From contig NZ_JAHUZG010000002.1 of assembly GCF_019218285.1 (NCBI RefSeq), positions 496,001-560,000 on the forward strand: DNA of 64,000 nucleotides, in the 5' to 3' direction. How positions within the stretch are numbered: position 1 is the stretch's first letter; each line of letters starts with the position of its first letter. The notes beneath the pieces are model-generated. The model was not told where the DNA came from and searched no databases. It saw only the letters and a program-made list of their open reading frames with translations. The DNA comes from Antarctobacter sediminis (GTDB taxonomy: Bacteria > Pseudomonadota > Alphaproteobacteria > Rhodobacterales > Rhodobacteraceae). Positions 50,600 to 63,560 of the stretch are shown here, in pieces. A program made the position numbers and the translations under genes.

Positions 50600-50689
50600 G
50601 GAGAGGTGGCCGAGTGGTCGAAGGCGCACGCCTGGAAAGTGTGTAGGCGGGAAACCGTCTCGAGGGTTCGAATCCCTTCCTCTCCGCCA
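50600..50689 (+). tRNA. tRNA-Ser (anticodon GGA)
   Basis: A full class II tRNA starts with GGAGAGGTGGCCGAGTGGTC. The anticodon arm CACGC-CTGGAAA-GTGTG carries GGA, so it reads UCC. A long variable arm (TAGGCGGGAAACCGTCTC) and a T arm with GGTTCGAATCC follow, with encoded CCA at 50687-50689. Its last 14 nt are repeated at 63547-63560 and form the left end of the integrated element. Confidence 0.97.
50676..50689 (+). repeat. Left attachment site (attL core) in tRNA-Ser
   Basis: CTTCCTCTCCGCCA is the 3' end of the tRNA gene and is repeated exactly at 63547-63560. The integrase gene starts 147 nt to its right, the usual placement. Because the tRNA end is restored by the element, the tRNA remains functional. 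Confidence 0.75.
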
Positions 50690-50836
50690 CTTTTCGGCAA
50701 TCGAAAATCCCATAAACACTTGAAAATAAAAGATTATCGCACTTAGGCACGCGGGCCGTCCGCCGTTTTTGCCTTGCTTTGTGACACATAACGTTGCACA
50801 ATCTGATCCACGGGGCATTCGCACGGGGTTCAGCCG

Positions 50837-52105
50837 ATGACGATCTACAGACGGGGCAACACCTACCATCTGCGCAAGCGCGTGCCGCTTCGCTACGGGT
50901 CCGTAGAGGACCGCAAGATTGTGGGAATCAGCCTGCACACCGACTCCGCGTCCGTTGCCCGGACCAAGGCGGAAGGCTTGTGGCAGAACCTCATTGAAGG
51001 CTGGGAAGCCAAGCTGGCAGGCGACACGTCGGACGCAGAACGCCGCTTTGAGGCGGCGCGCGAGCTGGCGGCCGTGCGGGGCTTCCGCTACCTGCCAGCC
51101 ACCAAGGCGTCGGCCCTGCCGACCGAAGAGTGGCTGGCGCGCGTGGAAGCCGTGCCAGAGCGCAACGGCAAGCCGGACATGAAGGAAGCGGCCGCGCTCT
51201 TTGGCGGCGTGGAAGAGCCGCCTATCACGGTGACCCGGGCGCTGGAATTGTATTGGGGGCTTGCGGCCGACAGGTCGCGCGGCAAGAGCGAAGATCAGCT
51301 TCGCCGCTGGAAGAATCCGCGCAAGAAAGCCGTGGCCAATTTCATTGCCCAAGTGGGCGACAAGCCGCTGGCCGAGATAACCGGCGACGACATGCTGGCC
51401 TTCCGGGACTGGTGGATGGAGAAGCTGGAAGAGGACGGGCTTACGGCCAATTCCGCGAACAAGGACTTGATCCACCTTGGCGACGTGCTGAAGACCGTGA
51501 ACCGCATGAAGCGGCTCGGGCTGGTGCTACCCCTCACGGACTTGTCGCTGAAGGAAGGCGAAGCGCAAACCCGGCCGCCGTTCTCCACGGATTGGATACG
51601 CGACAAGCTCTTGGCCCCGGGCGCGCTGGACGGGCTCAACACGGAAGCCCGGTGCATCGTGCTTGGCATGGTCAACACCGGATACCGGCCGAGCGAAGGC
51701 GCGGCCCTCACGGCCGCCACGATCCGGCTGGACCACAAGGTGCCGCATATCTCGATTGAGCCCAACGGCCGCCAGCTCAAGAGCCAATACGCCCGCCGCG
51801 TCATACCGCTGGCGGGGGTGAGCCTAGAGGCGTTCAAGGAATGTCCGCAGGGCTTCCCGCGCTACAAGGACAAGCCGGGCCTCTCGGCCACGGTGAACAA
51901 GTATCTGCGGGCAAACGGGCTCATGGAGTCGCCCAAGCATGTGCTCTACAGCCTGCGCCATAGCTTTGAAGACCGGATGCTTGCGGCGGGGGTTGATGAC
52001 CGGATCAGGCGAGACGTGTTCGGCCATCGCCTGACCCGGGAACGCTATGGCAAGGGGGCCAGCCTAGCGCATTTGCTGAAGGTCGTTCAGCAGGTGGCAC
52101 TCTGA
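50837..52105 (+). CDS. int: Tyrosine-type integrase of the satellite
   Basis: This 422-residue site-specific recombinase has an N-terminal arm-type region (MTIYRRGNTYHLRKRVPLRY), a core-binding domain (about 150-225) and the catalytic domain. Catalytic residues are Arg284 (NTGYRPSEG), Arg374 and His375 (YSLRHSFEDR), His397 (VFGHRLTRERYG) and Tyr404. The size is at the upper end for PICI and prophage integrases. It directly follows the tRNA-Ser attachment site, and its 3' end overlaps a small gene on the other strand. Confidence 0.93.
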   Translation: MTIYRRGNTYHLRKRVPLRYGSVEDRKIVGISLHTDSASVARTKAEGLWQNLIEGWEAKLAGDTSDAERRFEAARELAAVRGFRYLPATKASALPTEEWLARVEAVPERNGKPDMKEAAALFGGVEEPPITVTRALELYWGLAADRSRGKSEDQLRRWKNPRKKAVANFIAQVGDKPLAEITGDDMLAFRDWWMEKLEEDGLTANSANKDLIHLGDVLKTVNRMKRLGLVLPLTDLSLKEGEAQTRPPFSTDWIRDKLLAPGALDGLNTEARCIVLGMVNTGYRPSEGAALTAATIRLDHKVPHISIEPNGRQLKSQYARRVIPLAGVSLEAFKECPQGFPRYKDKPGLSATVNKYLRANGLMESPKHVLYSLRHSFEDRMLAAGVDDRIRRDVFGHRLTRERYGKGASLAHLLKVVQQVAL

Positions 52106-52284
52106 CCGGCGACGGCCCGGGCGCGGGCCAGAATGTCGTCGGACATGAGGGCTTCGGCGTCGGCCACTTCGGCTTCGGCCCGGCGGAAATGCAGGGCATA
52201 GGCCGGATTCTTGGGCTCGGCCATGACCATGCGCGCGATCTTGGCGCGGGCCGCCTTCAGGCGTTCAAGGTGTTGAAGGTCCAT
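52087..52284 (-). CDS. Small protein at the end of the head operon (65 aa)
   Basis: This 65-residue mostly helical protein (MDLQHLERLKAARAKIARMV, MSDDILARARAVAGQ) is not recognised. It is last in the minus-strand head operon and overlaps the integrase end by 19 nt. Head-tail completion proteins or scaffolds can be this small, but nothing identifies it as one. Confidence 0.55.
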   Translation of the reverse strand: MDLQHLERLKAARAKIARMVMAEPKNPAYALHFRRAEAEVADAEALMSDDILARARAVAGQSATC

Positions 52285-52351
52285 CGGGATACCCGGGACG
52301 GACGCTCACGGGCTGCGTCGGGTTGCCGGGCTGGTCAGGCCCGCTTGATGG

Positions 52352-52684
52352 TCAGCCGTCCAGCCGCACGACAACGGATGCGGACGGGTTGGCGGCGGCC
52401 GTGACGGCCACGCCGATGCGGTCATTCGCGCCGGTATCGTCGTCCGTCGTGACCACGCCATTCGCGGCGTCGAAGTAGAGCACGTCGCCCACGGCCACGG
52501 CGTCGGTGGACACCTTGGGCAGCGTGAAGCACCCGACGGTCACAAGGTCGAGGTCCGCGCCGCTGGCGGCGTCGCCAGCCGCCACGCCGATCAGTGCGCC
52601 GATTTGCACGATGCTGCCAGAGGTGATCGCCCCGGGCGCGGTCAGGGTGAGCGTGTCACCCGGTTGGACGTAGTTCGTCGCCAT
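52352..52684 (-). CDS. Capsid decoration/cement protein (DUF2190-like)
   Basis: This 110-residue beta-rich protein (YVQPGDTLTLTAPGAITSGS, VQIGALIGVAAGDAA, VGDVLYFDAANGVVTTDD, DRIGVAVTAAANPSASVVV) matches DUF2190. Family members decorate or cement the capsid in lambda-like and related phages and are encoded near the capsid gene. It lies next to the gpW-like gene in the head operon. ATG 52684 has AAAGGA upstream. Confidence 0.82.
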   Translation of the reverse strand: MATNYVQPGDTLTLTAPGAITSGSIVQIGALIGVAAGDAASGADLDLVTVGCFTLPKVSTDAVAVGDVLYFDAANGVVTTDDDTGANDRIGVAVTAAANPSASVVVRLDG

Positions 52685-52686
52685 GG

Positions 52687-52905
52687 TCAGAGTCCTTTCG
52701 AGGTTCTGAAGAGGATGGTGGAAGGCGGCCGCCGGGTGGCGGCCAAGATTTCAGCGTCAAGCGCGGCAAGGGCGCGGGCCATTTCGGTGTCGGAGCGGTA
52801 TTCCACCTCTTCGCCGTTCTGGTCCCGCACGCGCCGCACGCCGCTCGCCCGCGCCGTCATGAGCGCGTCACGGGCGGCCGTGAGCTGGGCGAGCGTCAGG
52901 GCCAT
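52687..52905 (-). CDS. gpW-like head-tail joining protein
   Basis: This 72-residue protein (LAQLTAARDALMTARASGVR, EEVEYRSDTEMARALAALDA) resembles lambda gpW in layout: an N-terminal helix, a short beta-hairpin with GxxVEYRS-like sequence and a second helix. gpW joins the head to the tail neck. In a satellite without tails it would be the part that meets the helper tail. It overlaps the capsid gene stop. Confidence 0.72.
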   Translation of the reverse strand: MALTLAQLTAARDALMTARASGVRRVRDQNGEEVEYRSDTEMARALAALDAEILAATRRPPSTILFRTSKGL

Positions 52906-52907
52906 GC

Positions 52908-54692
52908 TCAGGCCCCGGCGTTGCGGTATGCGCCCCGGTGATCCACGGCACCGCAGCCGAAGTCGAGCACCACACGAAACTCCCGGCCGAGCGTTTCCCA
53001 GCCGTCGCGGCTGGCGAGCTGCGGCCCGGGCGCGCTGGACAGGTAGGCGTATTCCAGCACCGGGGCCGTGGCCGGGTCACCGAAGACCCACCATTGCGGG
53101 CCGGTGATACGCGGCTCCACCAGAAGCGACAGCTTCGTGGCGTAGACGTTCACGTCGTCGGTCGTGGCCGGGTAGATGCTCGCCAGCAGCTTTTCGGCGG
53201 CGCTTTCGGACTCCGGCCCCACCAGCAGATACTTGGGCCGGACGTTGACCGGCGTCTTGCCGTCAAGGCCCTTCTGCGTCCGCATGGCGAGCCGGGCGGC
53301 GTCCAGCGTGGCCTGCACGCCCACGTCGCCCAGCCCATCGCCAGTGCTGGAAAGGTTGCCATGATCGGCGTGGAAGAGGTTCTTGCCGTCCGACAGCTTC
53401 ACGCCGCCGCCGCTGTTCGCGGTCAGAAGGCCAATGAGCTGCGCCGCTTCGGTCTCGGCCGCCGCGCTGCCCATCATCTCGGCCCAGCGGCCGAAGGCCC
53501 CCAGATCGTCGTTGATGATCGCCTTGCGGGTCAGGCTGAACATTCCGCCGAAGGTTTCGAGCGAATAGCCTTCCTTCGTCTCGCCCGTGGTCATGGCCTT
53601 GATTTCACCATGCTCCGAAACCTTCTGAAGCCCGGAAAACTCGGCCACCTTCAGGATGGACAGGGCGCGGAAGTCCGACGCCGTGCGCTGGCGGGCCAGC
53701 GTCTTCAGCACCGACTCAGCACGTTGATAGGCGTTCGTCAGCACGCGGTTGCCCGCGCCGGTCAGCAGCTCGGGGAAGTCGCTGGTGCCGTGCATGGCGC
53801 GCGTCATAAGCTCTTCGCGGCCCATCATGCCCACACGCTCGCCCGCCCGGGTCAGAGCGTCGCGGGCGAGGTCTTCCAGCCCAAGGCCCATGTAGGCGCG
53901 GGCTTCGTCGCTGGGGGCGTCGCCAGCCATGCGGCAGGCCAGAGCTTCGGTCTGGCGAGTGGCGATGACGGCCGGGTCTTCGTTCTGCGGCGCGGCCGTG
54001 CGGATGGTGGGCGCGGTGCGGGTGGCGCGGGCGGTCACGGCCTCTTCCCGGCCGGACTCGCGCACGTCGTCGTCCGTCAGCTCTTCGCCCGCCTCTTCCA
54101 TACGGGTTGCCCATTCCTCGGGCAGATTGTGGGCCGCCCGGACACGCTGGATCAGCGCGGCGCGGTCGGTCGTTTGGGTATCTTTCGGCACGTCGGCCTC
54201 CTCTTGATGCCGCACGGCCGCGTTCGGGTCGGCGGGGTTGCTGGTCAGGGTGACTTCGGAAAGAGTGATGCGCTTGGCGGTCTTGGTCCGCATTGCGCCG
54301 CGCTTCCCGAGGGTCCATCCGGCGACGCGGTAACCGATGCTGACGCCGGAAAGGGTTCCATCCGCGATCCGTTGCCCGACGGGGGCAACATCTTCGGCAG
54401 AGGAAAGCCGCATGTCGGCTTCAATGGCGGCGTCCACGCGCCGGATGGATACGGTTCTGCCCAGAACGGCCCGCACAGTGCGGGTGTTGTGCGAGTCGAG
54501 TACGGGCAGGTTTTGCGCCACCAGATCGAAGGCGTCCGGGGGCAGGATTTCCAGATACGGCCCTTGCGCGTCATGGCGCGTGACGGCGTGAGCCGTGGCG
54601 ATGACGGCCGAGAACGTCCGGGTTTCCGGGTCGAAAGAGTTCACCCGCACTTCGGCCGAGCGCGTCAGGTGTTGAGGATCGTCAAGAGGCAA
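52908..54692 (-). CDS. Prohead protease / major capsid protein fusion
   Basis: This 594-residue protein joins two phage functions. Residues 1-200 are a prohead serine protease: His68 (NLPVLDSHNTR) and Ser118 (LSGVSIGYRV) match the HK97-type pair. A charged, helix-rich middle (about 190-290, with EEWATRMEEAGEELTDDDVR) may serve as scaffold. The C-terminal part (about 290-594) is a HK97-fold capsid protein (GYSLETFGGMFSLTRKAIIN, LLTANSGGGVKLSDGKNLFH, VNVRPKYLLVGPESESAAEK). I use the TTG at 54692 because GGAGGG lies 6 nt upstream; a GTG at 54728 is possible and would add 12 residues. Confidence 0.88.
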   Translation of the reverse strand: MPLDDPQHLTRSAEVRVNSFDPETRTFSAVIATAHAVTRHDAQGPYLEILPPDAFDLVAQNLPVLDSHNTRTVRAVLGRTVSIRRVDAAIEADMRLSSAEDVAPVGQRIADGTLSGVSIGYRVAGWTLGKRGAMRTKTAKRITLSEVTLTSNPADPNAAVRHQEEADVPKDTQTTDRAALIQRVRAAHNLPEEWATRMEEAGEELTDDDVRESGREEAVTARATRTAPTIRTAAPQNEDPAVIATRQTEALACRMAGDAPSDEARAYMGLGLEDLARDALTRAGERVGMMGREELMTRAMHGTSDFPELLTGAGNRVLTNAYQRAESVLKTLARQRTASDFRALSILKVAEFSGLQKVSEHGEIKAMTTGETKEGYSLETFGGMFSLTRKAIINDDLGAFGRWAEMMGSAAAETEAAQLIGLLTANSGGGVKLSDGKNLFHADHGNLSSTGDGLGDVGVQATLDAARLAMRTQKGLDGKTPVNVRPKYLLVGPESESAAEKLLASIYPATTDDVNVYATKLSLLVEPRITGPQWWVFGDPATAPVLEYAYLSSAPGPQLASRDGWETLGREFRVVLDFGCGAVDHRGAYRNAGA

Positions 54693-54867
54693 GGCAGGCC
54701 CTCCATTTGCGGAACACTTCGGTTTCACGGGCCATGAGCTTGCCCGTTCGCGGGTCGCGGATGACGCTTGCGCGGGACAGGTCCATGGTCAGCCGCTCAG
54801 GCGCATCGGCCGGGTGCGGCACGTCGGCAGCGGACTGGCGGACGATCTTGGCAATGTCGGGCTTCAT
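54682..54867 (-). CDS. Small protein between portal and capsid genes (61 aa)
   Basis: This 61-residue protein (KPDIAKIVRQSAADVPHPAD, RASVIRDPRTGKLMARETEV) overlaps the portal stop (ATGA) and the capsid-fusion start. It is not recognised. Small ORFs of this kind often encode minor head components, but no motif proves it. Confidence 0.65.
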   Translation of the reverse strand: MKPDIAKIVRQSAADVPHPADAPERLTMDLSRASVIRDPRTGKLMARETEVFRKWRACLAS

Positions 54868-56246
54868 TCGCTCGCCCCCTTGGGCCAGCCATCGGCAGCG
54901 ATTTCCGAGTCCAGGTCTTCTAGTGCCCAGCCCCGGGCGGCCACGGCCTTGCGGCGGCTGGTCAGTCCGGCTTCAATCTCTGCCACGGTCGCTTGCGTGT
55001 CCTTCAGCGGGTCCACTTGCTGCCATGCCGGGGGCAGCCACTCGGCCCGGTAGGCGCGCGGATCGGACTCGTAGTCGGGCGCGTCCAGCGCCCCGGACAG
55101 CACGCCCCATGCCACCACGCGCCGCCAGATCGGGTTGAGGAGCTGGGGCACGAAAACGCCATACTGGACTTGCTCGCACCGCTGGCGAAAGGGCAGCAGC
55201 CCGGCGCGCAAGCTGGAATAGTTCGCGTCGCTCAGGTCGCCGTCCAGAAGGTGCGAGGGCAGCCCGAGCCCGGCGGCGAGCTGGCGCAGGTTGAGGCGCA
55301 GGAAGGCCCCCAGCTCTTGCGCCTGCGCCGGGCTGTTGAATTTCACGTCCAGCCCCGACGGCAGCCGTTTCAGCGTGCCGGGCTCAAGGCCGGACTCCAT
55401 GATGCCGCCCGCTTCGGTGCCGTCGTAAGGCTCGCCCGCCGTGCCGTTCATGTCGGTCAGGAAGCCCGCGTGCATTGCGGCCACTTTGGCTCCCATCAAG
55501 AGGGCGTCGCAGAGCTGGTCGAAGTCGGACGCGGACAGGATGACGGGGGCCAGCCACGACACGCCCCGGACTTGCCCCGGGCCGAGCGGCTTGAACACAT
55601 GAAGGATTTCCGCCGCCGGGATGCGGACCGGCGACGCGGACGTGGCGAATGTATCGGTGGGCTTGGCGGGCAAGACCCAATAGGCGGCCCGGGTGCCATC
55701 GGCGGCAAACTCCACGCCCGAGACGATGTAGCGGCCGTCGGCCAGTTCTCGGGTCAGAGACTCGTCCACCAGCTCGGGCGGCAAGAGGCGCAGGCGCGGC
55801 CCCTCGGGCGTGTCGAGGAGCTGCACAAAGGCTTCGCCGTCCACGACAAGGCACCGGGCAATCTCGGCCTGAAGGCCCCATACGTCGGTCCGGCCGTCGG
55901 CGTCGGCCTCTTCGCCCCATTGCGTCCAGAGCCCCGCCAGCCCGGCCCGGGTGTCAGCTTCGCGGTGCTGGGGCGTCGGGTTGATGCCCGTGCCCGCCAG
56001 CGCGCCCACCCAATTCGCCACGGCTTGAGAAATCCAAGGGTTGTTTGCGGCCAAATGACGGGCGCGGACGCGCAGCACTGGCCCGGACAATACCGTTTCC
56101 GTCCCGTGCCGGTGATAGATGCCCATCCCCGAGCCGCGCCGCCCATGCACCCCCGTCACGGCGTCAAAGCCTGCACGCTGGGTGTGACGTGCCCGAGGCC
56201 GAACGGTTTGGGCAGGAATAGTGAAGAGGCGCGACAGCAGGGACAC
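54864..56246 (-). CDS. Phage portal protein (lambda family)
   Basis: This 460-residue protein matches lambda-type portals (gpB group). The first part contains LAANNPWISQAVANWVGALA and GTGINPTPQHREADT. The clip/crown part has DGEAFVQLLDTPEGPRLRLL and VSGVEFAADGTRAAYWVL, and the stem region is LHVFKPLGPGQVRGVSWLAP and LRAGLLPFRQRCEQVQYGVF. The portal starts the head and the DNA channel. It is followed by the 61-residue gene and preceded by the regulator gene 3 nt away. Confidence 0.92.
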   Translation of the reverse strand: MSLLSRLFTIPAQTVRPRARHTQRAGFDAVTGVHGRRGSGMGIYHRHGTETVLSGPVLRVRARHLAANNPWISQAVANWVGALAGTGINPTPQHREADTRAGLAGLWTQWGEEADADGRTDVWGLQAEIARCLVVDGEAFVQLLDTPEGPRLRLLPPELVDESLTRELADGRYIVSGVEFAADGTRAAYWVLPAKPTDTFATSASPVRIPAAEILHVFKPLGPGQVRGVSWLAPVILSASDFDQLCDALLMGAKVAAMHAGFLTDMNGTAGEPYDGTEAGGIMESGLEPGTLKRLPSGLDVKFNSPAQAQELGAFLRLNLRQLAAGLGLPSHLLDGDLSDANYSSLRAGLLPFRQRCEQVQYGVFVPQLLNPIWRRVVAWGVLSGALDAPDYESDPRAYRAEWLPPAWQQVDPLKDTQATVAEIEAGLTSRRKAVAARGWALEDLDSEIAADGWPKGASE

Positions 56247-56248
56247 GA

Positions 56249-56788
56249 TCAGCCTCCCAGCTCCACCAGCAACTCCGCAATCAAGCGGGACGCATGAACG
56301 GTGAAAGTCGCAACGGGCTCTTCGGTCTCAACCTCAGAGAACACCTTGTCAGCGACGGCCGCCGCGCTCGCGTCATCGGAGGGCCAGTCGGTTATGAATG
56401 CAAGACGGCCGTCGCGATGAAGGTGCAGGTTGAAGTCGAAGCTCTGCCCTTCGCGCACACGCTGAACGGCTTCTTCTACAGGCGACATGGGCCGCTCGCC
56501 GCCATCAAGTTTGACACGGCGGGCCTGTCCCGTGGGTTGGCTCTGCATGTCGCGCGCGAACGTATCCAGCACCCATCGGTCAGACAGGATACCGCTTGCC
56601 ATCTGAAGCATCCGCAGGGCGCAGATGGTGTGGAGGGGATAAAGGTCCGCCCGGCCGCGACGGTCAGCGGGCGGAAGGTAGTGTCGTTGCGACAGGTTCC
56701 GCAGCGCCTTGTCGAGCGCGGGCAGGTTCTCTTCGGCAATCGCGTCGATACGCGCGAAACAGGTCGTGGCTTCTTTGATGGTGAACAC
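56249..56788 (-). CDS. Putative MerR-like winged-helix regulator
   Basis: This 179-residue protein has LRNLSQRHYLPPADRRGRAD plus LYPLHTICALRMLQMASGIL, which resembles the winged-helix part of MerR-type proteins (an LPPA turn followed by a YxLxxVxALRxL helix). A variable second half is beta-rich (FDFNLHLHRDGRLAFITDWP, EPVATFTVHASRLIAELLVE). PICIs use small DNA-binding regulators such as AlpA to start their cycle; whether this one does so is inferred. The GTG start at 56788 has GGAG at 8 nt. It reads into the portal gene. Confidence 0.6.
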   Translation of the reverse strand: MFTIKEATTCFARIDAIAEENLPALDKALRNLSQRHYLPPADRRGRADLYPLHTICALRMLQMASGILSDRWVLDTFARDMQSQPTGQARRVKLDGGERPMSPVEEAVQRVREGQSFDFNLHLHRDGRLAFITDWPSDDASAAAVADKVFSEVETEEPVATFTVHASRLIAELLVELGG

Positions 56789-56962
56789 GGGCTCGTCTCC
56801 AAAACAGCTTGAAGACTCAATAACTCAAAATTAAGTTGTATGGCAAGACGGAATCAACTAAAAGTTCTGGCGTGGCCCGGTTGCGGAGTGCGGGTCACGA
56901 CAGTGCCAAAGGCGGCCGGGGAACCCTCGCTCCGGCCGCCGCCCGCAAGATAGGACAATCAG

Positions 56963-57211
56963 ATGCACGCGCTTTACCAAAAACGGCTCGGCCTTGCCGG
57001 GCTCGCAACCATGAACGGCTCTCATCGCAAGGGCGAAAACGCCGTGTTGCGATCCGGCCGCCAGCGGCGAAAGGCGTTCGAGAAAAAGCAGGACGCCTTG
57101 ATTGAGGCGGCGTGGAAGCGATGGGGCGATGTGGAGAACATGCCCCCGGAAGAGCAGTCTAAACTGCACCGACAGATTGACCGGCTGCACCGTGAGTACG
57201 GTCTCGCCTAA
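56963..57211 (+). CDS. Small basic protein of unknown function (82 aa)
   Basis: This 82-residue protein, rich in Arg and Lys (RKGENAVLRSGRQRRKAFEK) with a helical second half (WGDVENMPPEEQSKLHRQID), faces away from the regulator gene and leads to the cargo genes. AGGA precedes the ATG at 7 nt. It could be a regulator or DNA-binding protein of the satellite. There is no recognisable family. Confidence 0.55.
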   Translation: MHALYQKRLGLAGLATMNGSHRKGENAVLRSGRQRRKAFEKKQDALIEAAWKRWGDVENMPPEEQSKLHRQIDRLHREYGLA

Positions 57212-57278
57212 CGGTCTTGCGGTTGACAAACTGACAAGATTTACACGAGATGCGGGAGAGCAAAACTGAGGGAAACTC

Positions 57279-58178
57279 GTGGATAACAGTATCGGCCTGC
57301 ATATTTACGCCATTCATAAGTATAAGACCAGAAAACACAAGGTTATTCCCTTTGACACCACGGGCGACGGCGCTCGACTAAAGAAGTTCATGCCGCACTT
57401 CTTGGAGCGCTACAAATCGGCCGAGTATGAGGAAGGCGAGGCACCACGACCATGGTATCTTGTGCCGGACATTGACACCGGTGACACCTACGATGGACTG
57501 GTAATGTACGGCAGTTCAGGTTATGCCACTGACATTGTAGATCGGGAGACGAGAACAACACAATACAGAAGAAAAGTCTCAGATATTGAAATAATTCCAC
57601 TCTATTATCGAATTTGGGTGCCTGACTCTGGGAATTATGCGCTGATTGGTTTCCAAACTTTCGGGCAGAGGTCCTGCGTGGGTCGCGTTCAAATCGCCAT
57701 GGAGTCGGGCTTCAGGCACAGCAATAGCGGCTATAGGATAACTTTCACGCCTGTGGCACCATCCCAAATAACCTCATACAAGACCGCAGAGGTTAAGCGC
57801 CTATACTTGACCAAACACGATTACTCTAGTGACCCGGCAGACAATCAGCTTGTGGAAGAGGGCGAAATAGTCGATTTGAGCGTCTCGTTTAGTGCAAAGC
57901 GTCGTTCAAATTTGGGAATTTTGGATTCTTTTACCAAGAGAATTGCTTCGAGTGCGCAGAGCAAGGTTTTGCGCTATAATGACACGGAGTTCGATGAAGC
58001 AGCCGCTGATGTTATGGTCGGAGGCAAGCGCAGAAAGGTGACGCTCGTGGGCATTAGCAGGAACACGGGAAAATTCGATCTTTCAGAGGACGTTTCCCGA
58101 GGAGTGAACGGGATGCCTCGCCTCGCTTCGATACGGCAGGAAGTCGAGAAGATCTTCAACGACATTGTGGCAGGATAA
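57279..58178 (+). CDS. Cargo gene A: soluble protein, candidate anti-phage component
   Basis: This 299-residue protein has no signal peptide or membrane segment. Recognisable features are the start IGLHIYAIHKYKTRKHKVIP, DTTGDGARLKKFMPHFLERY and the central ALIGFQTFGQRSCVGRVQIA. I cannot assign a family. GC content is clearly lower than in the flanking phage genes, and the strand is opposite to them. The GTG start at 57279 follows GAGGGA. It is followed after 1 nt by a four-helix membrane protein. Soluble-plus-membrane pairs carried by satellites are often defence systems; that role is inferred. Confidence 0.7.
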   Translation: MDNSIGLHIYAIHKYKTRKHKVIPFDTTGDGARLKKFMPHFLERYKSAEYEEGEAPRPWYLVPDIDTGDTYDGLVMYGSSGYATDIVDRETRTTQYRRKVSDIEIIPLYYRIWVPDSGNYALIGFQTFGQRSCVGRVQIAMESGFRHSNSGYRITFTPVAPSQITSYKTAEVKRLYLTKHDYSSDPADNQLVEEGEIVDLSVSFSAKRRSNLGILDSFTKRIASSAQSKVLRYNDTEFDEAAADVMVGGKRRKVTLVGISRNTGKFDLSEDVSRGVNGMPRLASIRQEVEKIFNDIVAG

Positions 58179-58179
58179 G

Positions 58180-58707
58180 ATGCTCAAAATAAATGTACTG
58201 GTCATAATTTCTGACCATCTGAGCACTCTCTATAACGACCGCTCGGGAAAGCGGTCTTACACCGATTTTCTGTTTTTCTACGGCCTCCCAGTAGCGCTTG
58301 GCGTGGCTTTCTATCTCTTCCCATTTCCGCTACCTCAGGATATTAATACTGCATTGATAGCGGTTTTTTCCGTCTTTGGCGCACTACTTTTCAGCGCACA
58401 AATGGCGCTCTATGGCCTTTCACCTCAACCACCCGCCTCTTCTGGTGATGCCACTACCGACGCAAGGGAGAAGTCGAGGTATGAAAGAGACAGGAAATAT
58501 TTCTCTGATGTAAACTTCAATGTCTCTTACCTAATCCTGTTATCATGTCTTTCACTGGTAGCTTTTCTTGCCATGATGGTCATGAATGCTCCCGGTCATG
58601 CAGAGGGCGCTATACTAGTTGGTCTAGTATCGCACTTCTTCCTTACTTTGCTAATGCTCGTGAAAAGAACGCATATTGCGTTTTCAACAAAGTACAATGC
58701 CAGCTAG
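58180..58707 (+). CDS. Cargo gene B: four-helix membrane protein
   Basis: This 175-residue protein has four hydrophobic segments: FLFFYGLPVALGVAFYLF, TALIAVFSVFGALLFSAQMA, NVSYLILLSCLSLVAFLAMM and GAILVGLVSHFFLTLLMLV. A charged loop (TTDAREKSRYERDRKYFSDV) separates the second and third. It resembles small membrane proteins that sit with a soluble partner in defence contexts, from general memory only. ATG 58180 is 1 nt after the stop of gene A, with AGGA at 4 nt; an earlier TTG at 58165 would overlap gene A. Its stop overlaps the terminase stop on the other strand. Confidence 0.7.
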   Translation: MLKINVLVIISDHLSTLYNDRSGKRSYTDFLFFYGLPVALGVAFYLFPFPLPQDINTALIAVFSVFGALLFSAQMALYGLSPQPPASSGDATTDAREKSRYERDRKYFSDVNFNVSYLILLSCLSLVAFLAMMVMNAPGHAEGAILVGLVSHFFLTLLMLVKRTHIAFSTKYNAS

Positions 58708-60476
58708 CGGCCCAAAAGCCACTTTGACCGCACCACCGTAGCGGGTTTCTTTTCGACCGTCACGGCCTCAACCTCCTCGGCCCGGCGGTCCACGCTGGCG
58801 TTCACCAGCGCCCGCACGGCCATGGCGTAAATCACGCAGTCCAGCGACTCTGCGCGGCGGCCGGGCGTGCGTTCCCATTGCCGGACGGGGGCACCGCGCC
58901 GATAGCGCACCACCAGCCGTTCGGACGCCAGCTCTTCAAAGAACCGGCCTTCCAGCGTGTCGCTGAAGCGGACAGAGCGGCCCCGGGTCAGCCGGTTGAT
59001 TAGCTGCCCCTTGAGCCCGTCCACGCCCACGATGAAGAGCCGCGCGCCCCGCGTGTCGCTGGCCCGGATCGCTTGGCGGTCACCGGACGCCCCCTTCACG
59101 GCGAAGATGCGCCGAGCCATGCGCGGGCGGCAAAAGCCCAGGACTCGGTCCATGGTCACGCCGTCGCCCGCGTCGATACCGGCCGCGTCCACCCGCAGGA
59201 AGCCGCCCTTGGGGTGCTTCCAGATGGTGCGCAAAGCGTCGTCCAGCTCGGCCCACACGTCTTCCCCCATCGGGTCGCCCCAGATGACGGATTGCCCGAG
59301 CACAAAGATTTCATCGCGCCCCCAGCCAAGAAAAACCATTTCCAGCCGGTCGCGCTGCACGTCGATTCCGGCCGTCACGAATAGCACCTCGGGCGGGATC
59401 GCGTCGGGCAGCGCGAAGGGCTCGGCCCGGGCGGCCAAGGCGGCGTCGTCAATCTCTTCGGCCGCCTCGCGCCAGCCTTGGCCCATGAGCGTATTCGTCC
59501 AGACTTGCAGCTTGTCCGGGTGGGCCTTCGACTCCAGAAACTCTTGCGCGATCTTGCCCCAAGAGGCGTTCGCCAGCGTGGACACCAGAGCATTGAGCCG
59601 AAAGCCCGCGTGGCCTTCCACCTCGGGCCGGGTGATACGCCAGCGCCCGGCGGCCACCATGGCGGGCTTGTGCCGCTCTTCCGTCACGCCGTCGCAGCTC
59701 GGGCAGACATAGGCGGCCTTCAGGGGCTCGCCCTCGGGCCACTGAATGTCTGCCCACGTGATTTCATGGAATCCGCCGCAATGGGGGCAAGGCACCTCAT
59801 AGACGCGGGAGTCGCTGGTGGCGTAGCTGCGTAGCACGTTGCTGGTGGCTTCCAGCGTGGGCGTGCTGCCCAGCACGATCTTGCGATTGGGGAAGCTCAG
59901 AGTGCGGCGTTCCGCCAGCGTCAGGGGCGAGCCCTCGGCCCCGGGCTCCATGGCGTCGGCTTCATCTATCAGCAGGACGCGGATATTGTGGCGGCGCAGG
60001 TTCCGGGGGCTCTTGGCAGCCACGACTTTCAGGCTGCCACCCGGAAACCGGCGGGACAGGAGCGTGTTGCGCCCGGCTTCGTCGGCCTCGGCCGCCAGCA
60101 AGCCCTTCAGCTCGGGCGTGGCGGCGAAGATCGGTTCAAGGTCGCTCACCACGTAGTCGCGGGCGTCGGCTTCGGTCGGCTGCAAGACCATGATCGGCGC
60201 GGGTTCGTTGGCGATGTAGGACGCCACCGTGCCGGACAGCAGCGTGGTCAGCCCGACGCGCACCGGCTTGACCACCGTCACACGCTCAATCAGCGGGTCG
60301 CTGATAGCCTCGGCAATGCCGCGCTGATAGGGCCAGAGGCCCACCCGGCCGGGCGTGGCCGAGACGCCCTCGGGCAGCCGCATGGTGGACTCGATCCAGT
60401 CGGGCAGGCTCAGGCGCGGCGGGGGCCTCAGCGCCGCCAGAGCGTTGCGGCGGGTCCGGGTCAGCGCGTCAATCAT
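58704..60476 (-). CDS. terL: Terminase large subunit (lambda gpA family)
   Basis: This 590-residue packaging motor and nuclease has the deviant P-loop KPVRVGLTT (residues 70-78; lambda gpA has KSARVGYS), Walker B VLLIDEADAM (Asp171, Glu172), coupling motif IVLGSTPT, a zinc site CPHC...CPSC (residues 230-261) and a nuclease start TAGIDVQRDRLEMVFLGW. The C-terminal region contains GRRAESLDCVIYAMAVRALV. It overlaps the small subunit by 8 nt. It ends against cargo gene B. Confidence 0.94.
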   Translation of the reverse strand: MIDALTRTRRNALAALRPPPRLSLPDWIESTMRLPEGVSATPGRVGLWPYQRGIAEAISDPLIERVTVVKPVRVGLTTLLSGTVASYIANEPAPIMVLQPTEADARDYVVSDLEPIFAATPELKGLLAAEADEAGRNTLLSRRFPGGSLKVVAAKSPRNLRRHNIRVLLIDEADAMEPGAEGSPLTLAERRTLSFPNRKIVLGSTPTLEATSNVLRSYATSDSRVYEVPCPHCGGFHEITWADIQWPEGEPLKAAYVCPSCDGVTEERHKPAMVAAGRWRITRPEVEGHAGFRLNALVSTLANASWGKIAQEFLESKAHPDKLQVWTNTLMGQGWREAAEEIDDAALAARAEPFALPDAIPPEVLFVTAGIDVQRDRLEMVFLGWGRDEIFVLGQSVIWGDPMGEDVWAELDDALRTIWKHPKGGFLRVDAAGIDAGDGVTMDRVLGFCRPRMARRIFAVKGASGDRQAIRASDTRGARLFIVGVDGLKGQLINRLTRGRSVRFSDTLEGRFFEELASERLVVRYRRGAPVRQWERTPGRRAESLDCVIYAMAVRALVNASVDRRAEEVEAVTVEKKPATVVRSKWLLGR

Positions 60477-60972
60477 CGTCGGCCAGCTCCATGAGCACGT
60501 CGCGCACCTCGGCGTCCAGCGTCTTCAGGTCGTGCGGGGTCAGGTGGCCGAGCTTGCCAGCGGCCCGGCTCGGCAGGGCGAGGAAGGCGGCCCGTACGTC
60601 GCGCAGGACGCCAGCCCAAGCGCGTTCCACCTCGGCCGCCGCGATCAGCTCGCCCCGGGCCTTGGCGTTTGCCAGTTCGAGCTTATCCGCGTTCGCCTTC
60701 GCCAGCCGCAGTTTCTCGGCCGACAGTTCGGAGTCGGCCCGGCGGCCAATTGCCCCGGCACGGGCGTGCTCGGCATAGGCCCGGACGGCAGCCTTGAGCG
60801 GAAAGCGTTTCGCGTCGTCGCGGGGAATGGTGCCATCACGCGCCAGAGCTGAAACGCGGTTGGCGGTAATGCCCAGCCAATCCGCCAGCTCGCCAGCGGT
60901 CACCGTGCCGGGGTCCGGGGGGCCACCCACCAGTGCGTCAATCTCTGCCAGTTCGGCGTCGGTAATCGTCAT
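60469..60972 (-). CDS. terS: Terminase small subunit (Nu1-like)
   Basis: This 167-residue protein has the Nu1-type winged helix at residues 25-70 (TAGELADWLGITANRVSALA, RDGTIPRDDAKRFPLKAAVR). The coiled middle follows (LSAEKLRLAKANADKLELAN, AKARGELIAAAEVERAWAGV). The end is GHLTPHDLKTLDAEVRDVL. It recognises the packaging site and recruits the large subunit. A satellite with its own small subunit packages its own DNA specifically. ATG 60972 has GAGG at 6 nt. Confidence 0.9.
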   Translation of the reverse strand: MTITDAELAEIDALVGGPPDPGTVTAGELADWLGITANRVSALARDGTIPRDDAKRFPLKAAVRAYAEHARAGAIGRRADSELSAEKLRLAKANADKLELANAKARGELIAAAEVERAWAGVLRDVRAAFLALPSRAAGKLGHLTPHDLKTLDAEVRDVLMELADDD

Positions 60973-60982
60973 GCGTGCCTCA

Positions 60983-61291
60983 CGGTAACGGCGGTGCTCA
61001 CGGTAAAGTCGGTAAAACCCGGGTTCCCAATTTCAATTTTTCTGTGAAGTGGAAAAGCCCGGGGCTCCGCGCCCCCCGCGTTCCCACCCGCCGGGAAGGA
61101 CCCGTCACGGTAAAGCCGGTAAAGTCGGTAACGCTTTACCCTCACGCTCTCTCTTCGCCACTGTCCGGGGCTGGGGCGGACCGGACAACCGGACACCCCT
61201 AAAGGGGTGTGTCCGTGTCTGTCCGGCCAACCGCCTGCCATTGCCCGTCGGACAAGTTTGGACATGTCCGGCAATGTCCGTGTCTGTCCGG
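60983..61291. other. Candidate replication origin: two sets of iterons between terS and primase
   Basis: 9-bp repeats of CGGTAAAGY occur tandemly at about 61001-61017 and 61108-61132, with a degenerate copy at 60984-60989 and an inverted copy at 61133-61140. The two blocks flank an AT-rich stretch (61025-61057). Next to it are eight or more TGTCCGG/CCGGACA copies (61162-61291), including the palindrome GGACATGTCC (61260-61269) and the hairpin ACACCCC-TAAA-GGGGTGT (61193-61210). SaPI-type origins have iterons around an AT-rich segment next to the replicase gene, which matches this plan. Confidence 0.55.
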
Positions 61292-61293
61292 CC

Positions 61294-63300
61294 CTATTCA
61301 TCGGGAAAGTCACTTGCCAAATCCTTGCTGTGTCGTTCCACGTATTTGCCCTCTGCGAAAATGACCAATCCTCTTCGGGTCAGGTCTTTCACCGCACGCT
61401 CAAAGGCTTTGCGTCGGGAATCCGGTTTGTCGGCAGCAGACACTTCACGCCCGTCAATGCAGGCGTCGCGCCACACCTCTTCCGGCACTCGCATGGTTCC
61501 CTTGCCAAGATCGCGCAACACGGACAGGGCGGCTTGGACGCTGGGCGACAGTTTCAGTCCACGCCCACGGCTGGTGTTGTCCGCCTCTTCGCAGATTGCG
61601 GCCGTGATCGCTTCGCCGTCTTCGTCGGTGCCGACTTCCCGGACACCAACCGTAAACGCCAGCTCCTGTTCGGTCGTGCCGTTGCGGTTCTTGGACGGCC
61701 TCACGCTCACCACGCCGTCTTCCCGCTTCAGGTAAAGCGCCACGTCCAGAGCGCCGTTCAAGAGGCTATGGCCACGGGGCAACCCGTCGCCCGCCTTGGT
61801 ATCGTGGTGGATCAGCACGACAGCCGCGCCCCACTTGGTCAGGGATCGGGAGGCCGCCACAACCTGCCCCATTCCTTTCGCATCGTTCTCTTCCAGCCCC
61901 GGGAAGGCCACGGCCAACGTGTCGATGATGACAAGCGCGGGCCGCCGTTCCTTCACAGCCCGTTGCAGCGCCTTGAGCTGGCCTTGCTTGCTCAGAAGAT
62001 CGGAGACGCCCTCCACCACCTTGAAGTCCGGCGCGTCGCCATGTTCGGCGGACAAGGCTTGGACACGCCCTCGCATTCCGTGGCCGTCTTCCGCTGCCAC
62101 ATAGAAGACGCCGCCCGTCTTCACGCGCCGCCCGAAGACTTCGGCTCCTTGGGCAACGGCATAGCCGAGACGCGGCGCGAAGAGGCTTTTGCCAGCGCCC
62201 GGTGCGCCCACAATGGCCGCCACGTCGCCTTGAGCAAGGAGTCCCTTGATGACATAGGGGCGTGCTGCCGTGGCCGCGCAATCGCTCGGGCTCAGGAAAG
62301 TCAGGCCGCCGGAACGGTCAACCGGCCCGCCCACCAACTCGGCAATTTCATCCAGCTCGGTCGCGCCCCAATCATCATACTCCGGCGTCATACCAAGATC
62401 GTCCCAAAGCGAGTCAAAGTCTTCCAGCAACTCAATCCGGCGAAGCTCGGTCACGGCGGCGTCGCGCCAGCCGTGCCGCTCGGCCTCATGGACAACGTGC
62501 CAGCCAGTCAGGCCACGGTCGGCATTGCAGGAATCCCAAGCCGCGTCGGTGCTATCCGAGTCATAGCTCGGGTGTTGCCGGGACCATTCGTGAACCGCCT
62601 CGCGCCCCTCTTCGCTGCCCCCTGTCTCGCAATGCACGGCCATAACCATGTGCAACCAAGCGTCACGGCTGGCGTAGGCGTCTCCATCATTCGGGCACGT
62701 CATGAGCGCGGCGCGGGTCACGTGGAAGGGAAGGCCCGTAGGCTCGCCCTGTCCCGGCTCAGAGGGCCGCTTGCGGATTGGCAGAGCCTCGGGCCACTTG
62801 GGCAGCTCGCGCGTCAGGCGGCCCGTATAGACGCCTTTGCCATTGATCGCCCCCGGGGCCACCACGAAGCCGCCCTCGCCGCGCACGTCCAGCCCAGCGG
62901 GCAGCCCGGCGGCGCTGTTGCCTTCCCCGCCCCAGCGGAAATAGATGTGTCGCCCGCCGCTGGCGGTTTCGACTTGGCAGGGCGACATGGCGTCAGCGTC
63001 CAACCCCAGCGCCTTCAACTCGGCAAAGCCGTCTTTCCCGTTCTTCTGGTCAATATCCAAGACGGTGAATCCGTTGCGCTCACCAGACGGAATGCCGGGC
63101 ATGGCGTCGGGCCATTTCGCCCACCAGCGTTCAATCTGCCGGGCGTCGCTGGTGGCCTTATCCTGCCAGCCCTTCACAAGAGGGCGCTTGTTCGGCCCCA
63201 GCGGAATTACTTTCCAGTCTTCGGCGGCCAATTTCAAAGCGGCGGCCAAATTCGGATTGGCTTGGCCTTTGGCGACTTTCAGGCTATATTCAGTGTGCAT
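61294..63300 (-). CDS. Primase-helicase (prim-pol plus RecA-like ATPase) of the satellite
   Basis: This 668-residue replication protein has an N-terminal bifunctional primase/polymerase domain (residues about 20-170; acidic pair in TVLDIDQKNG, Asp82 and Asp84, and SGGRHIYF). A primase C-terminal-type linker follows, then a RecA-like helicase domain with Walker A VGAPGAGKSLF (366-372) and Walker B ALVIIDTLAVAF (Asp460). The C-terminal 120 residues end in a winged-helix-like region (RKAFERAVKDLTRRGLVIFA). ATG 63300 follows AAAGGA. Such proteins start satellite replication at an adjacent origin. Confidence 0.88.
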   Translation of the reverse strand: MHTEYSLKVAKGQANPNLAAALKLAAEDWKVIPLGPNKRPLVKGWQDKATSDARQIERWWAKWPDAMPGIPSGERNGFTVLDIDQKNGKDGFAELKALGLDADAMSPCQVETASGGRHIYFRWGGEGNSAAGLPAGLDVRGEGGFVVAPGAINGKGVYTGRLTRELPKWPEALPIRKRPSEPGQGEPTGLPFHVTRAALMTCPNDGDAYASRDAWLHMVMAVHCETGGSEEGREAVHEWSRQHPSYDSDSTDAAWDSCNADRGLTGWHVVHEAERHGWRDAAVTELRRIELLEDFDSLWDDLGMTPEYDDWGATELDEIAELVGGPVDRSGGLTFLSPSDCAATAARPYVIKGLLAQGDVAAIVGAPGAGKSLFAPRLGYAVAQGAEVFGRRVKTGGVFYVAAEDGHGMRGRVQALSAEHGDAPDFKVVEGVSDLLSKQGQLKALQRAVKERRPALVIIDTLAVAFPGLEENDAKGMGQVVAASRSLTKWGAAVVLIHHDTKAGDGLPRGHSLLNGALDVALYLKREDGVVSVRPSKNRNGTTEQELAFTVGVREVGTDEDGEAITAAICEEADNTSRGRGLKLSPSVQAALSVLRDLGKGTMRVPEEVWRDACIDGREVSAADKPDSRRKAFERAVKDLTRRGLVIFAEGKYVERHSKDLASDFPDE

Positions 63301-63546
63301 CGTTTTCCGTCCTTTGATGCCGCGACATGGGGATTTCGCATATCCCGCAAGTCGGATTATTTGGCCCCCGTCGGTTCAGCTCCGGCGGGGGTTATTCATT
63401 TGGAGAATCTACAGCAGAGCCCGGGGAGAGTCCCGAAAATTGTGCCATATTTTGTTGCACTAAGCGTGACACATTTCAGGAATCGAGATTTATAATATCG
63501 TTATTTCTCAATTGCTTAGCCATATTGCGAGACGGATATTGTCGGA
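63301..63546. other. 246-nt region between primase gene and attR
   Basis: No gene of the element is supported here. The first part holds a GC-rich hairpin, CCCCCGTCGG (63365-63374) with CCGGCGGGGG (63382-63391), a 10-bp stem with one G-U pair and a 7-nt loop, followed by TTATT on the plus strand. It could be the leader of the primase transcript or a boundary terminator. The rest (63420-63530) is AT-rich and is the likely primase promoter, but no clear -35/-10 pair was found. Confidence 0.45.
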
Positions 63547-63560
63547 CTTCCTCTCCGCCA
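63547..63560 (+). repeat. Right attachment site (attR core)
   Basis: CTTCCTCTCCGCCA repeats the last 14 nt of tRNA-Ser(GGA). Flanks differ on both sides, as expected for a crossover core. No other part of the tRNA is repeated here. Confidence 0.75.

Follow-up and report, generated by a model that had tools for sequence, protein, structure and literature searches.

How does a genomic island that encodes a viral head and its packaging enzymes, and no recognizable tail, move between cells? The question is raised by a locus of Antarctobacter sediminis (Rhodobacteraceae), found in a stretch of 64,000 nucleotides of contig NZ_JAHUZG010000002.1 (positions 496,001 to 560,000) that is called here the window and in whose numbering coordinates are given. 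A first-pass annotation had described in it a 12.9-kb satellite resembling the capsid-forming phage-inducible chromosomal islands (cf-PICIs). Our analysis indicates that the island is very probably an integrated phage satellite that makes its own head, packages its own DNA and takes its tail from a helper; it probably lives at the expense of tailed viruses, travelling on borrowed tails. The island has an integration site at the 3′ end of a tRNA-Ser gene, an integrase, a replication protein accompanied by an origin-like motif, and lambda-like head and packaging genes, with no detectable tail or lysis genes. Judged by its sequence and that of its relatives it is real, apparently intact and widely repeated, and from the same material we infer its mobilization by a helper.

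The island lies between repeats of the tRNA-Ser 3′ end, at about 50690-63560 (12,871 bp). The exact 14-mer CTTCCTCTCCGCCA occurs at the end of the tRNA gene and again at the right boundary (Table 1); when about 60 tRNA positions are compared with 12 kb of uniform bases, about 0.003 exact 14-mers are expected by chance. The core open reading frames (ORFs) are open and full length. Profile searches of 16 window ORFs produced no significant match for tail, lysis, CI or AlpA proteins and no profile match for an HNH endonuclease or a Stl-type regulator; closest to AlpA was a weak HTH_17 match of the small terminase (TerS; E 0.079), under the HTH_17 cut-off. The profiles and the exact repeat bear out the island in tRNA-Ser with the gene content first listed for it, as well as the reported absence of tail, lysis and CI-repressor genes. 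With capsid, portal and terminases present, and no tail or lysis genes, the island has the gene content of the functional class of capsid-forming phage satellites.

Relatives were collected from several sources. The window capsid matched 108 of 394 genomes of the host's bacterial family, tailed prophages among them, and stretches of up to 20 kb were cut around 40 of the better matches. An alignment of 24 capsids, used to scan named genomes, yielded 398 relatives, of which the best 80 were kept; 79 of these are Alphaproteobacteria by NCBI ranks and one, a Bosea, is titled a-proteobacteria. By order, the best 80 are Rhodobacterales (59), Hyphomicrobiales (10), Acetobacterales (3), Sphingomonadales (3), Caulobacterales (1), Rhodospirillales (1) and unranked (3). 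IMG/VR contributed at least 579 relatives, the best 80 of which, on contigs of 4-32 kb, were used. Some capsid match was present in 54 of 385 sampled genomes of the class, many of the matches being weak and to the protease part alone. The genome loci L037-L156 (n = 120) include 103 with distinct capsid DNA, and in 85 of these 103 the sequence continues for 4.5 kb or more past the capsid. Ad1, the gpW-like head-tail joining gene, follows the capsid in 78 of these 85, and the decoration gene is found in 78 of the 85. An integrase of the query families stands 0.5-3 kb downstream of the capsid in 57 loci, and a tRNA or tmRNA gene 0.6-6 kb downstream in 62 (median 2.0 kb), on the opposite strand in all 62. 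Fifteen kinds of target are represented (Ser, Met, Phe, Cys, Arg, Lys, Glu, Tyr, Thr, Val, Gln, Trp, Leu, Gly and tmRNA). Repeats of the tRNA 3′ end were detected in 13 of 28 loci tested and give element sizes of 9.9-12.6 kb, the 13-bp repeat of L072 being weak. One IMG/VR contig of 12.7 kb (L203), the sole clear case among the 80, carries a 113-bp terminal direct repeat, as expected of a circle. This architecture supports well the functional reading first proposed, a satellite with its own head and no tail.

Tail and lysis queries were taken from four phages, RcKemmy, Pben1, CRP-811 and Pyei1. They matched one of the 103 distinct genome loci and one of the 200 loci L037-L236, the sole match being L061. 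In a control the queries matched 19 of 21 stretches around lower-scoring capsids, and the two that were missed, L255 and L258, have an integrase beside the capsid. Queries for the FII adaptor gave no match in the satellites. The gene order also differs. RcKemmy and Pben1 have a gpW-sized gene ahead of the portal, in RcKemmy with the annotation gpW-like, and behind the capsid come small genes and tail genes. In the satellites the gene behind the capsid is Ad1, and most of them have an integrase at the place where tail genes would start. Searches of phage records returned no Ad1 relatives at E up to 1. We also built a tree, by a quick method, from the C-terminal parts of 96 capsids; it has several long branches, and one branch (SH-aLRT 98) separates 22 tailed rows from 72 satellites and two unclear rows. 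The low-similarity picks L255 and L258 grouped with the satellites. Within the limits of the tree's selection and labelling, the satellites form a conserved lineage apart from the tailed phages.

Comparison of individual elements revealed exchange of modules. The window island and an element of Roseivivax lentus (L037) share 93.5% DNA identity over capsid-decoration, 90.3% over the portal and the winged helix-turn-helix (wHTH) gene next to it, and 93.5% over the large terminase (TerL) and TerS. For the integrase, the cargo and almost the whole primase there is no match in DNA; a stretch of 110 bp close to the origin-like region is 87% identical. The target of the R. lentus element is tRNA-Phe, that of the window's is tRNA-Ser. 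L077 gives the same map as L037. Relatives of the window integrase, at 68-69%, are found in elements L049 and L050, whose target is tRNA-Ser(GGA) too. A sister group of elements adjoins tRNA-Met(CAT) in four of six stretches examined; one member spans 17.3 kb between 47-bp repeats, and no clear repeat was seen in the other four tested (a 13-mer in G365). Within this group, elements of Zavarzinia marina (Rhodospirillales) and Albimonas pacifica (Rhodobacterales) are 93% identical over 5.2, 2.3 and 1.4 kb, with an unmatched stretch between TerL and portal, both assemblies being drafts in which contamination is possible. Such identity across orders points to mobility only.

Several points weigh against a tailless satellite. 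Loci were labelled satellite by default unless shown to be tailed, L061 included; the tree loci were chosen for the likeness of their capsids to that of the window, and for L035 the label tailed came from its record only. These choices favour the split between tailed and satellite rows. L035 (a 38.8-kb complete record) and L036, Pseudomonas phages with related capsids, had no match to the tail queries, so divergent tails and short adaptors can escape such queries. L061 adjoins tail-tube and chaperone genes and has a broken portal. A query-family integrase was not found downstream in 28 of the 85 loci, nor a tRNA in 23. Queries for three kinds of tailed prophage found none in the A. sediminis genome, and no helper emerged from the analysis. 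Five congeners carry the tRNA-Ser with no satellite gene matched and no clean empty site; this check covered 1.3-1.7 kb past the tRNA in two of them, and the right flank was on another contig or 420 kb away (G774). Passages of PMC10690885 describe cf-PICIs as widely distributed across Bacteria, so host range alone does not separate the island's family from them.

The first-pass annotation had named two findings that would speak against its reading, namely tail genes with matching ends elsewhere in the genome and relatives that are remnants of full prophages. Both were looked for and neither was found: the only GpA terminase of the genome is the island's, there is no tail sheath and no tail tube of the RcKemmy type (a positive control was lacking for the tube search), and full prophages are not seen among the relatives examined, L061 being an exception. 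Decay of a prophage is an unlikely origin, and deletion of the tail and lysis genes from a full tailed prophage a very unlikely one, even with a head module homologous to those of the tailed siphophages RcKemmy and Pben1 and with L061, where satellite head and tail genes stand side by side. The intact core ORFs argue against such a remnant, as do the same tailless order with tight spacing in most of the 103 distinct loci, an Ad1 order unlike that of tailed phages, the absence of tailed rows among the satellites of the capsid tree, and the swapped modules and att repeats of related satellites. The tails could instead be supplied by the host's own gene transfer agent (GTA) and not by a phage. 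GTA clusters are widespread in Alphaproteobacteria, and this coincidence of host range, with a protein of the GTA TIM-barrel type among the tail genes of RcKemmy, is what speaks for the idea; the gpW/FII joints are of lambda type, however, and GTAs, as far as is known, use another adaptor set. Direct evidence for a GTA tail was not seen, no search aimed at GTAs having been made, and this reading is very improbable.

Membership of the true cf-PICI family, with head genes later replaced, is improbable to a lesser degree. The size class, the own head and packaging and the missing tail are common to both, and in three of six sister-group stretches an integrase-like match is found at the opposite end from the head genes, closer to the layout of PICIs. 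The capsid nevertheless matches PF25209 (Mu-like gpT, with a fused S78 protease) and not PF05065, which is not listed at E up to 0.1; the terminase is of the GpA type, no HNH, AlpA or Stl-type profile was matched, and the primary host groups given in passages of PMC10803314 do not include Alphaproteobacteria. The island was set apart from cf-PICIs by the window profiles together with published descriptions. Of the earlier comparison with cf-PICIs, the likeness in function stands; the head genes lend no support to family membership. The protease-capsid fusion, once proposed as a sign of a new branch, is already known: the NCBI model NF045541 (prohead protease/major capsid fusion) covers it with 633 bits, beside matches to PF25209 (1.7e-48) and Peptidase_S78 (3e-7), and tailed Rhodobacter and Paracoccus phages have annotated protease-capsid fusions.

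Table 1. Features of the island and its integration site, in window coordinates.
Feature	Position	Strand	Supporting match or program
tRNA-Ser(GGA), integration target	50600-50689	+	ARAGORN
Left att repeat, exact 14-bp copy at the tRNA 3′ end	50676-50689	+	
Tyrosine integrase, 422 aa, DUF6538 + Phage_integrase	50837-52105	+	PF00589 7e-8; phrog_1 1.5e-23
Head decoration/cement protein	52352-52684	-	PF09956 2.5e-26; phrog_122
gpW-like head-tail joining protein (Ad1)	52687-52905	-	NF047331 8e-21; phrog_2545 4e-16
Prohead protease/major capsid fusion, 606 aa	52908-54728	-	PF25209 + PF04586; NF045541
Portal, lambda-type	54864-56246	-	PF05136 3e-81; TIGR01539
wHTH protein, resembling MerR in its model and in weak fold matches	56249-56788	-	
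Cargo gene A, 299 aa, no family	57279-58178	+	
Cargo gene B, 180 aa, judged by eye to encode a membrane protein	58165-58707	+	weak phrog_15250 (8.6e-4)
TerL, GpA type (ATPase + endonuclease)	58704-60476	-	PF05876 3.5e-86; PF20454 1e-78
TerS	60469-60972	-	phrog_57 1e-28
Origin-like region, hairpin 61193-61210	61155-61295	none	
Prim-Pol + PriCT_2 + AAA_25 (RepA-like helicase) protein	61294-63300	-	PF09250 1.6e-31; AAA_25 5e-32
att repeat, right copy	63547-63560	+	

The origin-like region lies upstream of TerL, between the primase and TerS genes, and combines iteron words, an AT-core hairpin (often CCC-TTTA-GGG) and inverted words. In the window, the words TGTCCGG/CCGGACA stand at 61162, 61181, 61189, 61220, 61265 and 61285 around a hairpin of the CCC-TTTA-GGG type. 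The motif was detected in 32 of 115 dereplicated loci, compared with a mean of 0.6 and a maximum of 2 in 20 shuffles by three-base blocks, and it was absent from six phage controls. It was present in 32 of 52 loci near a relative of the window primase versus none of the 63 without one (Fisher p 4e-15, the loci being related). The iteron word varies by element, GAGACC in L049 and GATACC in L050, though these two are near-identical. We read the iteron-hairpin as a putative replication origin; a packaging site would be the alternative. L049 and L050 are 94-96% identical, with primase differences that look concentrated at the C-terminus, and it is possible that the origin and the binding domain of the primase changed together. 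Overlap with the origin-like motif casts doubt on an ORF at about 60969-61313 as a gene.

Most att-bounded elements have, immediately before the portal, a gene of 165-280 aa with an N-terminal winged helix. Its position is kept in 12 of 14 att-bounded elements in an alignment read by eye; L072 and L073 do not fit. The non-core ORFs of the 14 elements were scanned, 107 of 109, leaving out an antisense ORF of L037 and the doubted window ORF. Their complete Pfam list (20 families) contains one HTH_17 match (7.7e-4) and single or paired matches to HTH_3, HTH_31, Arc and MerR_1, the two MerR_1 matches being taken as the L057 and L069 genes; from PHROG, 25 of 52 families were listed, and tail families are possible among the other 27. 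The AlphaFold model of the wHTH protein has a pLDDT of about 92 over the first 30 residues and of 72 overall. Foldseek gave no match at E of 0.001 or below, the top rows being superoxide dismutases with probability below 0.1; weak matches to the MerR proteins CueR and CadR followed (E 0.5-1, probability 0.6-0.84, about 80 columns aligned). The lack of an AlpA gene reported for this element is right by profile, yet it has a MerR-like wHTH gene at a fixed place. This gene is probably the switch of the head operon, and may act as a helper-sensing switch or an excision factor. Small ORFs before the primase were also considered as a hidden AlpA and rejected, clustering of the 14 elements having found one common to the L049/L050 pair only.

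The slot between TerL and portal holds cargo. In 115 such slots the length is 0.65-4.9 kb, with a median of 2.0 kb. The window cargo (57279-58707) has a GC content of 0.48, compared with 0.60-0.69 in the flanks and the other genes. Cargo gene A has no relative in 393 other genomes, plasmids or IMG/VR, and the pair is an orphan of no known family; its location in the slot prompts the guess that it serves in defence. The 115 slots contain 238 ORFs of at least 110 aa, and the slot scans used 116 of these with 190 aa or more. In the pooled 116, among the matches listed (25 of 52 Pfam families), there were Eco57I (6), N6_Mtase (5), DNA_methylase (3), ResIII (2) and HNH_2 (2), with single matches to XamI, BsuBI/PstI, EcoRII and Vsr. 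PADLOC on the pooled slots, among the matches listed (25 of 268), gave mad2 in 9 and many methyltransferase models. A slot rich in restriction-modification genes throughout the family was nonetheless rejected: the signal comes from the sister group, and there is none in the 81 of the 116 ORFs that belong to loci outside the assigned sister group. These 81 match 21 families, for example DUF4062 (2), MrcB_N, PIN, caspase-like Peptidase_C14, HEPN_AbiU2 and pentapeptide, and some of the 21 are known from defence proteins. In the 14 att-bounded elements of the window's group, PADLOC found three models, one ORF each of 107. In a copy on a Paracoccus plasmid the slot is occupied by genes for two methyltransferases and one HNH endonuclease, and a pentapeptide-repeat protein was recognized by eye in the slot of another element (L046:12746-13498).

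Other observations concern single relatives. IMG/VR contigs L173, L196, L215 and L219 have direct repeats of 18-55 bp near both ends, perhaps att sites. Gene order varies in L092, L169, L183, L189 and L203 and in L117, L125 and L219, where TerS/TerL, in some with the primase, follow the decoration gene or TerL-TerS is strand-flipped. A second portal and TerL, of weaker identity (32-33%), lie beside satellite genes on an IMG/VR contig (L184:407-3930). In L061/L263 a satellite capsid and the broken portal are next to tail genes, a possible recombinant with a tailed prophage. Baseplate genes J, W and V (L261:3-1427) are located about 1.7 kb outside the putative end of the G365 sister-group element. 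The Rhodovastum atsumiense plasmid RHOAph (L297; NZ_OW485609.1, 10.7 kb) carries a related protease-capsid fusion together with ParA, a toxin-antitoxin pair and a DUF3987 protein, and is perhaps a plasmid form of such a satellite, like the Vibrio satellite-plasmid cf-PISP.

A life cycle can be proposed for the satellite. When a tailed helper infects or is induced, the wHTH switch before the portal would free the head operon, and the Prim-Pol/helicase protein would copy the excised circle from the origin-like site. The element's own TerS and TerL would then pack about 10-13 kb into a small head made of the protease-capsid fusion. The gpW-like protein would close the portal, and the FII-type adaptor, the tail and lysis would come from the helper. 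The exchangeable TerL-portal cargo probably pays the host or fends off competitors. A wider hypothesis, for which we consider the chances to be even, is that these elements are a class-wide tail-pirating family of the Alphaproteobacteria, with a PICI-independent lambda/gpT-type head and their own packaging, origin and helper-sensing switch, which crosses orders on the tails of different helpers and carries cargo in a fixed slot, restriction-modification genes in the sister group and effector-like genes in the window's group. Capsid-forming satellites are also reported from Vibrio and Streptomyces, and if the hypothesis is true, making a head and stealing a tail would seem to have evolved more than once. 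Such a family could also account for some small "incomplete prophages" in alphaproteobacterial genomes and would offer cargo a transfer route between orders. Testable predictions on which helper tails fit follow from the narrow range of sizes and from the split between gpW and FII.

Among known systems, the tailed phages RcKemmy (Rhodobacter) and Pben1 (Paracoccus) have TerL, portal and protease-capsid fusion genes homologous to those of the island; unlike it, they have 40-kb genomes with tail and lysis genes, and RcKemmy an annotated head-tail attachment gene. P4-like satellites have a primase-helicase with iterons and insert in tRNA genes, but they are not known to have a capsid or terminase of their own, and the island has both. 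A search by title and start of the abstract found, among the matches listed, no description of capsid-encoding satellites in Alphaproteobacteria, the subscription literature being mostly outside its scope. In the portions available, the word satellite is absent from the main text of a survey of prophages in Rhodobacteraceae (PMC8224337), and a paper on marine elements deals with 4.6-kb elements without terminase or portal (PMC12324425). Passages on cf-PICIs state that they encode capsid, protease, portal, connectors, terminases and HNH and need tails alone (PMC10690885), that their capsids form three clades (PMC11389934), and that they average 14 kb in size, with primary hosts mainly among Enterobacteriaceae and several Firmicutes (PMC10803314). 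As far as these texts describe them, EcCIEDL933 and its kin and the Vibrio cf-PISP are, like the island, small and tailless, with terminases, portal, protease, capsid and head-tail joint, and they are reported to employ the tails of helpers (PMC11389934, PMC10690885, PMC13230959). The cf-PICI and cf-PISP capsids compared in a passage of PMC13230959 are PF05065, with a separate protease and an HNH endonuclease, and the cf-PISP has a Stl-like regulator. The island differs from both in its PF25209 capsid fused to the protease, its GpA terminase, the lack of a detected HNH gene, its MerR-like wHTH gene and its alphaproteobacterial hosts. The Streptomyces satellites MulchRoom and MiniFlayer, a kind apart, also encode capsid and packaging, and MulchRoom has an integrase and a tail of helper length; as described in passages of PMC10690885, they are unlike the island in having terminal repeats, virulent helpers and no replication genes. 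The island has a Prim-Pol/helicase protein and an origin-like motif. We class it as a kind of capsid-forming satellite that was assembled independently, cf-PICI-like in its working and with head and packaging genes of other families.

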